A DNA stretch of 36,168 nucleotides from an uncultured Pelagibacteraceae bacterium (GTDB lineage: Bacteria > Pseudomonadota > Alphaproteobacteria > Pelagibacterales > Pelagibacteraceae). The stretch is from contig CABYDT010000007.1 of the NCBI GenBank assembly GCA_902517865.1, forward strand, positions 1-36,168. Reading direction: 5' to 3'. Numbering within the stretch: position 1 is the first letter of the stretch; each line of letters begins with the position of its first letter. The notes beneath the pieces were generated by a model. The model saw nothing but the letters and a program-made list of their open reading frames with translations, ran no database searches and had not been told where the DNA came from. Positions 32,992-36,168 of the stretch are shown piece after piece. A program made the translations under genes and the position numbers.

Positions 32992-33021
32992 CTATTTTAA
33001 ATAATCAACAAACTAAAATAG
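32992..33021. terminator. Inverted repeat between rlmB and the porin gene
   Basis: A perfect 8-bp repeat, CTATTTTA (32992-32999) and TAAAATAG (33014-33021), with a 14-nt loop overlaps the porin stop codon. Its place between two convergent genes suggests a shared terminator, but the stem is almost all A-T and no strict T-run follows. Confidence 0.35.
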
Positions 33022-34035
33022 TACTTTAATTTTAACTTTGTGAATTTCGTATTCAGTATCTTTTGTACTATTTAGGTCAGAACCGTCTGCGTAGTCATAT
33101 TGAATGACTGCTGGACCAAGGTTGTAACCTATTTGTAAGATACCCATACCAGTTTCGACACCATTATCAGTGTTGACTGTCAAATAATTTATATTAGCTG
33201 CAAATACACCAATTGTAAGTGCATCGTTTACTTTGTAAGCGACACCACCTTCTTGGATTTCAGTTGTCGTAACTCGCTGTGTTTGTGTATCATCTAACTC
33301 GTTTTCAATCTCTTGATAACCAATTGCAAAACTTCCAATTTTATATTGGAAACCAATTGTAGTACCTTTTGGATCTGAGTTTGCAGTAGCATCTGATTCT
33401 TCAGATGATGTACCGAAACCGATTGTTAAACCATCAACTGGAGTTAACTTAACACCAACTGATGATGCAGTACCGTACTCAGATGAAGTTGCTGAACTTG
33501 CATTAATTGCATCAGTACTAGTATTTACGTCTCTAACTGGAGTAAATCCAAATGAGATCGCTGCTAAATCGTTTTTGAAACTTAGACCGATAGCGTTTTC
33601 ACCAGATGATGTATCCCATACGTCTGGACCTAATGGCTTACGAGCTGCTGTTGGCAGACCTCTGTGTGCACCAGTAATATCCGCACGTCTGTTGTTTACG
33701 TATGGTGAAATTGCTTTCACAGTTTCAATACCGTATGACTGGTCGTAACCAATACCAAGTTTTAGACCTCCGCCTAAATCAAAAGTAACTGCGTGACCAG
33801 CTTCGTCTCCACCTTCAAAAGTGTATTTGACTGAGTAACTAACTCCGTTATCCATGTCACCACTTCCAGAGAATGTAAGACCAGTTAAAGATCCAAGCGT
33901 TGACTTGAATGATCCGCCAGCATCTAAGTAGTTCCACTCTTGGTAACCACTGACTTTAACATCAGCAACAGCCGCAGTAGAAATAGAAGCAGCAGCAACA
34001 AGTGCGCTAGTTCTTAATAGTTGTTTTCTTAACAT
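33013..34035 (-). CDS. Outer-membrane porin
   Basis: Predicted trimeric beta-barrel porin for passive uptake of small solutes. It has 340 aa. A signal peptide (basic MLRKQLLR, hydrophobic Ala-rich core, cleavage after AVA at residue 24) is followed by alternating beta-strand pattern with Gly/Ser/Thr-rich loops. The chain ends in the aromatic C-terminal Phe (KIKVLF) needed for Bam-dependent insertion. An AAGGAG ribosome binding site lies seven bases before the ATG. The gene is visibly less AT-rich than its neighbours and favours a few codons, as expected for a very highly expressed protein. The substrate cannot be told. Confidence 0.85.
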   Translation of the reverse strand: MLRKQLLRTSALVAAASISTAAVADVKVSGYQEWNYLDAGGSFKSTLGSLTGLTFSGSGDMDNGVSYSVKYTFEGGDEAGHAVTFDLGGGLKLGIGYDQSYGIETVKAISPYVNNRRADITGAHRGLPTAARKPLGPDVWDTSSGENAIGLSFKNDLAAISFGFTPVRDVNTSTDAINASSATSSEYGTASSVGVKLTPVDGLTIGFGTSSEESDATANSDPKGTTIGFQYKIGSFAIGYQEIENELDDTQTQRVTTTEIQEGGVAYKVNDALTIGVFAANINYLTVNTDNGVETGMGILQIGYNLGPAVIQYDYADGSDLNSTKDTEYEIHKVKIKVLF

Positions 34036-34134
34036 TATTATCTCCTTTTTAATCGATTAATGTTGATGCGATTATTAGAGATATTGTTCCAGTAAATCAC
34101 GTTAATATGACTTAAAATTAGCTTTTTTTTTAAT

Positions 34135-34159
34135 TTGTTGTATATTTGCAACACAACAA
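34135..34159. repeat. Inverted repeat in the porin/DUF3576 divergent region
   Basis: TTGTTGT (34135-34141) and ACAACAA (34153-34159) form a 7-bp inverted repeat; a second one, TGTTG/CAACA (34136-34140 with 34149-34153), nests inside it. It lies about 100 bp upstream of the porin start and 50 bp upstream of the lipoprotein start, beside a run of nine T. The rest of the 175-bp gap (34036-34210) shows only the porin ribosome binding site; no promoter stands out. An operator role is inferred. Confidence 0.4.
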
Positions 34160-34210
34160 ATATATTGATTTTATTGGATTAATTAAACTTATGGTATTAA
34201 GTGTTAGATT

Positions 34211-34753
34211 ATGAGGTTTTTAAACTTATTTTTAGTAATAATATTGGCGCTTTTCACAACTAATTGTGGAATTTTTAAAAAAGATGACCCAAATAAACCC
34301 AAAAAAGTTAAGAAAAAGCAATACGAGTTTAACTCTGAACAAAGGGCAAAAGATTTCTCTGAAAGCAGAGGTATACTTGATGAAGTCTTTAAAAAGAAAC
34401 CAGGCGAATTTCAATTTGCAACATCTAACGTATTATGGAGAGCCTCTTTAATAACTCTAGAGGAAATACCGTTAAGGGCAGTGGATTACTCTGGTGGTAT
34501 AATCGTTACAGAGTGGTATACAAATTCAAAATCTAGTGACTCTTTAAGAATAACTGTCAGATTCAATTCAAATGAGGTATCACCGAGTTCATTCAAAGTT
34601 CTTACGCATAAAAAGATTTGCAATATAGACGGACAATGCAAGACAACTATGGTTAAGAAAACAAAATTGAATAATACTATAAAAGAGAAAATATTAAATA
34701 CAGCTCGAATTTTAGCTGTAGAGGCTAAAAATAAAACCATTAAAAAAAAATAA
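34211..34753 (+). CDS. DUF3576 lipoprotein
   Basis: Conserved alphaproteobacterial envelope protein of unknown function. It has 180 aa. A short signal peptide ends at Cys19 (LFTTNCG), a lipobox-like site that is looser than consensus, and a Lys-rich stretch follows. The domain core NVLWRASLITLEEIPLRAVDYSGGIIVTEWY is the DUF3576 hallmark. No Shine-Dalgarno sequence is evident before the ATG. The stop codon touches the encoded CCA end of the opposite-strand tRNA-Asp. In other alphaproteobacteria this gene is often near LPS-assembly genes; here it is divergent from a porin. Confidence 0.82.
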   Translation: MRFLNLFLVIILALFTTNCGIFKKDDPNKPKKVKKKQYEFNSEQRAKDFSESRGILDEVFKKKPGEFQFATSNVLWRASLITLEEIPLRAVDYSGGIIVTEWYTNSKSSDSLRITVRFNSNEVSPSSFKVLTHKKICNIDGQCKTTMVKKTKLNNTIKEKILNTARILAVEAKNKTIKKK

Positions 34754-34831
34754 TGGCGGGAGTGACGGGACTCGAACCCGCGGCCTCCTGCGTGACAGGC
34801 AGGCGCTCTAACCAAGCTGAGCTACACCCCC
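34754..34831 (-). tRNA. trnD: tRNA-Asp (GTC)
   Basis: A 78-nt cloverleaf with encoded CCA. The acceptor GGGGGTG pairs with CACTCCC (one G-T), the anticodon stem CCTGC/GCAGG holds CTGTCAC (anticodon GTC), and the T arm carries GGGTTCGAGTCCC. The discriminator is G, as in most bacterial tRNA-Asp. Its 3' end abuts the stop of the convergent lipoprotein gene with no spacer. Confidence 0.96.
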
Positions 34832-34939: not shown

Positions 34940-35015
34940 TGGTGGGCGGTGAGAGACTCGAACTCCCGACCCTCTCGGTGTAAACGAGATGCTCTACCAA
35001 CTGAGCTAACCGCCC
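34940..35015 (-). tRNA. trnV: tRNA-Val (TAC)
   Basis: A 76-nt cloverleaf with encoded CCA. The acceptor GGGCGGT pairs with ACCGCCC, the anticodon stem TCTCG/CGAGA holds TTTACAC (anticodon TAC), and the T arm carries GAGTTCGAGTCTC. The discriminator is A. A strong promoter lies directly upstream. Confidence 0.97.
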
Positions 35016-35129: not shown

Positions 35130-35768
35130 TTAAAAATTTTCATCATGAACTTGTTTTAATTTAAAACTTAAAAATATCATGATCAATATAATGGCTTTAG
35201 AAATATTTAAGTTTCCAAAAGTAAAAAAGTTATAAGATCCATGCATTAGTATTGGTAGCAAAATTGAATATCCTAGAAATTTTTTGTCACGACTTAAAAT
35301 ATAAAATTCAAAAAAATATCCCATCAATACACCATTAAATATATGCATTGGGACTGCAGTGAATGCCCTGGCAAATGCAATTTCATAAGAATTTTCTAAT
35401 GAGTTAAAAACATAACCAAAATTTTCATAAACTGCAAAACCTAATGAAATAAATAATGCAAAAATTACAACATCAAATTTCTTTAATTTTTTTTGTGTAG
35501 GGAGATAAAAAAGTAATGCTAAAAATTTTAATATTTCTTCTGTTAATCCACCAGCAAAAAACCCGATTAGTAAAGCATTATTAACTTCATTGTTATTGGA
35601 AAATGTTTGAACAATAAAAGTATTTAGATAGCCTGCTGGAAAACAAATTAAAATACCAAGTATAAAAGCTTTAAGAATAAATAATTTATGATTTTTGAAT
35701 CTATTTGCAAAGTAGAAAAACAAAACAACAATTAATGCTGGAAGAAAAGTGAAGAATAGTATCTTCAT
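35130..35768 (-). CDS. PrsW-like intramembrane protease
   Basis: Polytopic inner-membrane protein of the PrsW/Abi-related protease group, which cuts single-pass membrane proteins such as the anti-sigma factor RsiW in Bacillus. It has 212 aa and about seven membrane helices. The family motifs are EEILK (77-81), YENFGY (114-119), AVPMHIFNGVLMGY (138-151) and HGSYNF (176-181), giving Glu77, Glu78, Glu115, His142 and His176 as likely active-site residues. It starts two bases after a gene for a single-pass membrane protein, so the pair is co-transcribed. No sigma or anti-sigma gene is visible in the window. The natural substrate is unknown. Confidence 0.8.
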   Translation of the reverse strand: MKILFFTFLPALIVVLFFYFANRFKNHKLFILKAFILGILICFPAGYLNTFIVQTFSNNNEVNNALLIGFFAGGLTEEILKFLALLFYLPTQKKLKKFDVVIFALFISLGFAVYENFGYVFNSLENSYEIAFARAFTAVPMHIFNGVLMGYFFEFYILSRDKKFLGYSILLPILMHGSYNFFTFGNLNISKAIILIMIFLSFKLKQVHDENF

Positions 35769-35770
35769 TA

Positions 35771-36168
35771 TTATTTACGAATTTTAAGCTTTTTTAATCT
35801 TGTAGCACTTTGAGTGTATACAAAAAAAGTAATTGCGATTATCAATATTAAAGCCCACCAATAGTCTAATAAACCACTTTTGCCTTTTTTAGAAATCTTA
35901 CATTGTTTAACAGCTCTTAATTTACCTTCCCAATTCGTTAGTTGAACTTCACCATTTTCTAAATTTAAAGTAGCTGTCGCTTTAGCCATAAATTTTAATG
36001 TTCTTCGAGTATTCTCTAATTTTATATAATTTTCATTTGCAAAAATAACTTTATAATTACTTCTTTGTATTTTTTGCTTCATTTTTGCTAAAAGTTTTGG
36101 CGTAAAATCCCTATTATTTCCAAACTCTTTATCAATGTTTTTTGAATGTTCTTTAAACCATTTGTCAG
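35771..36168 (-). CDS. Unrecognised single-pass membrane protein (5' end outside window)
   Basis: I do not recognise a family. The frame has an ATG at 36082 but stays open without a stop to the window edge; the upstream 28 codons read as normal protein (for example DKWFKEHSKNIDKEFGNN). The true start is therefore probably beyond 36168. Visible: a hydrophilic, Lys/Asn-rich part with possible beta structure (KATATLNLENGEVQLTNWEG), a basic stretch, one hydrophobic helix (YWWALILIIAITFFVY) near the end, and a short basic tail RLKKLKIRK. The layout is that of a tail-anchored protein. It lies two bases upstream of the PrsW-like protease gene, which suggests a functional link. Confidence 0.7.
   Translation of the reverse strand, partial: DKWFKEHSKNIDKEFGNNRDFTPKLLAKMKQKIQRSNYKVIFANENYIKLENTRRTLKFMAKATATLNLENGEVQLTNWEGKLRAVKQCKISKKGKSGLLDYWWALILIIAITFFVYTQSATRLKKLKIRK

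Follow-up and report, generated by a model that had tools for sequence, protein, structure and literature searches.

The window, the whole 36,168-nucleotide stretch analysed here, ends in a two-gene cassette on the reverse strand. The downstream gene (35130..35768, reverse strand) encodes a 212-residue PrsW-family (PF13367) intramembrane protease whose catalytic motifs are intact, as judged from Pfam, an alignment of relatives and a structural model. The partner gene upstream, recognized from its open reading frame and its relatives, is represented by its C-terminal 131 codons (35771..36166, reverse strand), which cover the end of an ectodomain and a tail; the frame is open at its 5′ end, which was lost where contig C7 stops at 36168, and what we say of the N-terminus derives from relatives. 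Only two bases separate the partner stop from the PrsW start codon, and the partner has one hydrophobic helix followed by a C-terminal RLKKLKIRK. The Pfam match, the motifs and the coordinates thereby confirm the preliminary description of a PrsW gene lying two bases after a gene for a single-helix protein with a basic end. The tail (35774..35875, reverse strand), delimited by tail searches and codon comparison, consists of a GL-LDYWW motif, a membrane helix, FVYTQS and a basic end. Within it the DYWW signature (35855..35866, reverse strand), invariant in relatives, stands at the start of the helix on the presumed periplasmic face. Two tRNA genes identified with ARAGORN, tRNA-Val(tac) (34940..35015, reverse strand) and tRNA-Asp(gtc) (34754..34831, reverse strand), adjoin the cassette, and a porin gene (PF13609) and a DUF3576 gene, both ordinary, lie by it at 33013-34753.

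PF13367 is the only Pfam family matched by the window PrsW at E ≤ 1 (E = 1e-26; score 94.1 bits, cut-off 23.5). The motifs given for the family in the available text of PMC4602095, namely EExxK, HxxxD/N and an extra His of helix 5, can be compared with E77,E78..K81 (EExxK), E115 in YENFGY, H142 and H176GSYN180 in the window protein, and profile and motifs both place it in the PrsW protease family (PF13367, M82). E77, E78, K81, E115, H142 and H176 are each invariant in 55 of 55 aligned SAR11 PrsW proteins, and at position 180, 50 of them have N and 5 have D; the identity of the six core residues throughout argues for an active enzyme. A sequence search returned no solved PrsW structure, its one chance match having an E-value of 0.45. 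The predicted model of the window protein (pLDDT 76) finds its best PDB match in APH-1 (Foldseek E 0.07, which is weak; TM 0.59; VIA Z 14.5) and also matches translocon/BOS-complex chains that we take to be TMEM147 (VIA Z 14.5 and 13.2), with Foldseek E-values that are weak throughout (0.07–0.14) and Z-scores of a size (~14) that helical bundles reach without a clear relative. These matches agree with the view, put forward in the accessible parts of PMC4602095 and PMC6588880, that PrsW, Rce1-type proteases and APH-1 form one superfamily. They also bring in the main rival to cleavage, in which PrsW would be a scaffold that holds the partner helix in a stable complex, just as nicastrin is held by APH-1 and nicalin by TMEM147, the ectodomain would be a sensor or receptor, and the real PrsW substrate would lie elsewhere. 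Nicalin, for which we cite the available text of PMC7505659, packs against TMEM147 through one helix, carries a large domain in the lumen and was modelled on nicastrin/APH-1, and a stable complex would explain the linkage, co-inheritance, tail conservation and ectodomain swapping described below equally well. A pure scaffold, however, need not keep its catalytic residues as all 55 proteins do, and the fold matches carry the reservations just given; we regard this reading as a real but distinctly minor possibility.

In the order draw, 47 of 397 genomes have a PrsW relative; none was found in two other genomes of the same genus (68% and 79% complete), and viral_contigs holds no relative of the window protein. 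A phage origin was set aside on this last result and on PHROGs, which offered only weak names for the window pair; its one MORN-type match (E 1.4e-14) concerns the partner at locus L066. Anti-phage defence was also rejected, PADLOC reporting nothing for the pair and one weak Cas7c name (E 0.016) falling on a neighbour-family protein.

The nearest named relatives of the cassette come from SAR11 single-cell records and a Lake Baikal assembly, with PrsW proteins 65–76% identical to that of the window. Three partners lie directly upstream of PrsW in L040, two each in L041 and L042, and one each in L043 and L044, and every full-length partner at these loci starts with a signal-peptide-like segment. 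Given this start in full-length relatives, the window partner is probably a type I precursor, rather than the tail-anchored protein first proposed. Its ectodomain is weakly related to those of L040/L041/L042 partners (phmmer E 2e-4 to 2e-3 for four). In an AlphaFold2 model of one partner, a beta-rich ectodomain is joined by a loose linker (187–191, pLDDT below 50) to a terminal helix (191–222); the best PDB matches of the ectodomain fold are FABP-like, but their TM of 0.25 to the query is too low to be meaningful. No partner scanned matched a curated family with an unrelated role, and the weak NCBIfam names given to partners, one LPXTG-protein subfamily at E 0.18 among them, all fall far under their cut-offs.

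On the cytoplasmic side, partners of the window clade would have only ~12 mostly basic residues (more in L044), which would leave little for signalling inside the cell. This weighs on the idea that the pair works by regulated intramembrane proteolysis like RsiW/SigW, with PrsW cutting the partner and a signal passing into the cell, as in B. subtilis, where PrsW makes the first cut in RsiW according to the available text of PMC4602095 and PMC9263693. No sigma or anti-sigma family was matched by the partners or the four window neighbours scanned, in keeping with the earlier remark that no sigma factor is nearby, and the window PrsW scores 96.1 bits against NF033739, the equivalog model of RsiW/SigW-pathway PrsW, where the cut-off is 225. 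We consider this route improbable. A signalling module was dropped as the main reading because there is neither a sigma/anti-sigma match nor a cytoplasmic domain, and the signalling pathway suggested in the preliminary description, set against so short a cytoplasmic part and a variable part predicted to face out, finds no support.

The window tail is the only confident match in its genome (E 1.7e-18; profile E 5.6e-19). D, Y, W and W are invariant in nine partner proteins of the window's clade, and full-length partners end in LDYWW-A[VL]ILI.A...FF.[FY]TQ[ST] plus basic residues; LDYWW, helix, FxYTQS and basic end together look like a C-terminal sorting or processing signal. The tails of L040–L043 are identical in 24 of 24 residues while 4–11 of 24 codons differ synonymously and none non-synonymously, and the window tail equals them at 19 of 24 residues with 9–11 synonymous codon changes. 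Identical peptides that persist despite silent codon changes are held by selection and are not explained by recent copying; at the level of codons, then, the comparison shows purifying selection on the tail peptide, and on the tail only. Motif, helix and basic cluster lie at the C-terminus in the window and L040–L043, with a longer end in L044. At L066, L067, L068 and L153–L155, a further membrane domain follows, so that the tail is not always C-terminal. This domain, with its G.WRSA stretch, is found at the ends of the partners of these six loci and also in separate genes near PrsW (L078:9000-9323, L012:693-1412), of which one copy was scanned and had no Pfam match. The tail of a 263-aa protein of L112 is without YWW. 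There is no Cys in the tail alignments, and none of the curated CTERM models of NCBIfam matched any of 11 partner proteins at E ≤ 1. Each locus has one to three tail-carrying proteins, compared with the dozens of housekeeping sorting systems.

Tail searches in SAR11 yielded 17 confident tail genes in all, at 13 loci in 12 genomes, and all 17 abut a PrsW gene or sit in a tandem run that does; the 13 loci are related and hence stand for far fewer than 13 independent events. L112 is the L041 record, and L044, by its identical coordinates, is G127; each was counted once. A single 33-residue tail searched against 15 genomes gave 15 matches at E ≤ 0.014, each of them at a PrsW gene (14 distinct places, G403 being a repeat of G127; 11 of the 15 genomes were matched at E ≤ 10), and revealed an unexpected second PrsW in G400 (L064); four weaker matches (E 0.04–0.4) lay away from PrsW. 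Across draws of genomes that overlap one another, a seven-row tail profile matched strongly in 5 of 397 genomes of the order, every one of them a seed (E ≤ 1.2e-17; the best match after these, E 5.8e-4, is partial), reached E ≤ 1e-4 in 9 of 396 of the family, and was found in 6 of 169 of the genus with most cases and, in the phylum draw, in the window's own genome only (1 of 349). In three genomes of the family draw that were not among the seeds (G448, G480, G542), the tail gene overlaps PrsW by 20 bases; these loci were found by the tail alone but resemble seeds L067/L068, and the search was blind only to gene position. Second-tier profile matches, which start at E 5.8e-4 and extend to 116 of 397 genomes at E ≤ 0.1, were discarded; at the nine loci inspected they proved to be partial helix segments in other protein kinds or very short frames.

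The linkage of the tail to PrsW is near-exclusive and more than chance. The converse does not hold: a tail partner accompanies 13 of 55 SAR11 PrsW proteins, and the 42 without one indicate that PrsW has other jobs there. A search for PrsW outside SAR11 gave nine matches in 7 of 150 phylum genomes, counting the window; no such tail flanks the remaining eight, so the module is not general, and the tail is seen only in SAR11 so far. On a 52-row PrsW tree, the tail is present in all six rows of the window clade (support 99/98), and the tail label needs two changes.

Chance or hitch-hiking might also produce such a pairing, if the partners were a fast-diverging paralogue family in the same variable island as PrsW. 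Islands linked to tRNA genes collect unrelated genes, and tRNA genes are close to the cassettes of four records and of the window, suggesting insertion hot spots. Yet searching with the tail by itself finds PrsW, the nearest tail gene is −20 to +12 bases from PrsW at all 13 loci, purifying selection is strict on the tail only, and one tail occurs on unrelated ectodomains; we think hitch-hiking very improbable. A tRNA-Glu gene is found near the cassette in L040, L042 and L043, and another by the second PrsW of L041/L112.

By phmmer the partners form about eight ectodomain groups (window/L040–L042; L043; L044; L066, with MORN repeats; L067/L155; L068/L154; L153; and the 263-aa protein of L112), and ectodomains of the L040–L043 partners range from 99% identical (one pair) down to not detectably related. 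No ectodomain similarity (phmmer E < 0.1) was detected between L154 and L155 (PrsW 95% identical, tail 22/24), L067 and L068 (90%, 21/24) or L040 and L043 (97%, 24/24). Such close relatives with unrelated ectodomains show, as far as sequence comparison reaches, that ectodomains were swapped while PrsW and tail were kept together, the same tag occurring on unrelated outer domains. The groups L067/L155 and L068/L154 both occur in both PrsW sub-lineages, and for the ectodomain of L153 a tail-less relative (E 2e-26) is encoded beside PrsW in L071 and L072. With one tail taken from each locus, tail identity follows PrsW identity over the 13 loci (Mantel rho 0.72, reached in none of 5000 permutations), a correlation that shows co-inheritance of the two, not contact.

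Proteins whose first helix is near the N-terminus and whose last is near the C-terminus make up 31 of 191 at a distance of up to two genes from SAR11 PrsW versus 6 of 328 at four to seven genes, by a home-made hydropathy rule that drops genes below 80 aa and two duplicate loci and leaves out distance-three genes (5 of 95); nine of the 31 are the tail proteins themselves. Part of the excess is due to another partner family, DUF2167, found in 7 of 46 genomes searched, always directly beside PrsW, and absent in the other 39, including seven that have a different kind of PrsW. Directly upstream of a second SAR11 PrsW kind (L094, L095, L097, L099–L102) lie DUF2167 genes whose products have a C-terminal helix of the FWW/FWF type, and by these pairs more than one SAR11 PrsW lineage adjoins an exported protein with a C-terminal helix. 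Other genes recur near PrsW. Exported proteins of ~510–600 aa (cluster c1: L069, L078–L080, L082–L085, L089, L108 and others) are encoded within three genes of 20 of 52 SAR11 PrsW genes; two match the neurotransmitter-gated channel membrane region weakly, below the Pfam cut-off (E 4e-6 and 4.5e-4), and a third has no match. At 12 of 52 loci, PrsW has next to it a pair of genes for two-helix membrane proteins (clusters c3, c5 and c20; L101:7787-9564, L068:8474-10059 and similar), two members scanned having no Pfam match, and a gene for a flavin amine oxidase is likewise recurrent in the PrsW vicinity (cluster c8, seven members; L078, L083 and others).

The explanation we favour, and hold to be probable though well short of certain, is that PrsW and its partner are a dedicated C-terminal processing (sorting) pair in which PrsW recognizes and cuts the conserved tail; we infer the physical recognition, the cleavage, the topology and what then becomes of the ectodomain. 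The partner would be made as a precursor with a signal peptide, exported through Sec and anchored in the inner membrane through its C-terminal helix, its ectodomain lying outside. The adjacent PrsW would then recognize the tail (LDYWW, helix and FxYTQ) and cut in or beside the helix, and the ectodomain would be freed into the periplasm or handed to another anchor or to the surface. Ectodomains would be exchangeable, and PrsW and tail would stay together. A bolder version, which we offer tentatively as possible though rather unlikely, is a polymorphic SAR11 display system with unrelated outer domains on one PrsW-recognized tail, PrsW and tail being the bacterial counterpart of APH-1/nicastrin with the protease still active. 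The guess at the core of the preliminary description, that the upstream protein is the substrate or partner in an undescribed sigma-free module, gains comparative support: the pairing is conserved, what the partners have in common is precisely the C-terminal membrane tail, and no unrelated curated family was matched. Neither of the outcomes that it had set against itself, a pair that is not conserved or an upstream protein of a known unrelated family, was encountered when both were examined.

If this processing pair is real, another enzyme family would be added to C-terminal protein sorting, and the tail is a short, concrete and testable candidate recognition signal for a PrsW-family enzyme. 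The name PrsW is absent from the main text of PMC11980579, on C-terminal tags cut by related proteases, and our literature search, in coverage that leaves out most subscription journals and in partial texts, returned no paper on the SAR11 PrsW/tail pair. PrsW is widespread, with RsiW the sole natural substrate found in the accessible text of the literature searched. The host, SAR11, is among the most abundant marine bacteria, with a poorly known cell surface and under heavy phage pressure, and the pair touches on the origin of the APH-1 fold of gamma-secretase.

Several known systems share parts of this arrangement. Exosortase/PEP-CTERM, archaeosortase/PGF-CTERM and rhombosortase/GlyGly-CTERM likewise place a tripartite tag on unrelated proteins and pair it with a membrane enzyme, but those enzymes have other folds and motifs, and their systems usually have many targets per genome. 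In APH-1/nicastrin and TMEM147/nicalin, too, a PrsW-like fold is paired with a single-pass protein whose outer domain is large; they are eukaryotic non-proteolytic scaffolds, and the relation is suggested by fold only. PrsW/RsiW of Bacillus subtilis has the same protease family, catalytic motifs and a single-pass partner, whereas the SAR11 pair comes without a sigma/anti-sigma factor, falls under the equivalog cut-off and has a partner with its variable domain outside and almost nothing inside. Closest are the CPBP/Rce1-type systems described in the available text of PMC11980579, MrtX/MYXO-CTERM and MrtJ/JDVT-CTERM, in which the enzyme is from the glutamic intramembrane protease superfamily and the substrate has a signal peptide, short motif, helix and basic end. 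There, the myxosortase MrtX cleaves tripartite C-terminal tags, such tags can work mid-protein, and MrtJ with one JDVT-CTERM protein forms a dedicated adjacent two-gene pair, the nearest published arrangement to ours. The SAR11 system, in contrast, has been seen in SAR11 only so far, has a [DEN]YWW motif without an invariant Cys in a tail that is sometimes mid-protein, and uses an enzyme that has no CPBP match (Pfam, E ≤ 1) and belongs instead to the PrsW family (PF13367, EExxK, HxxxN).
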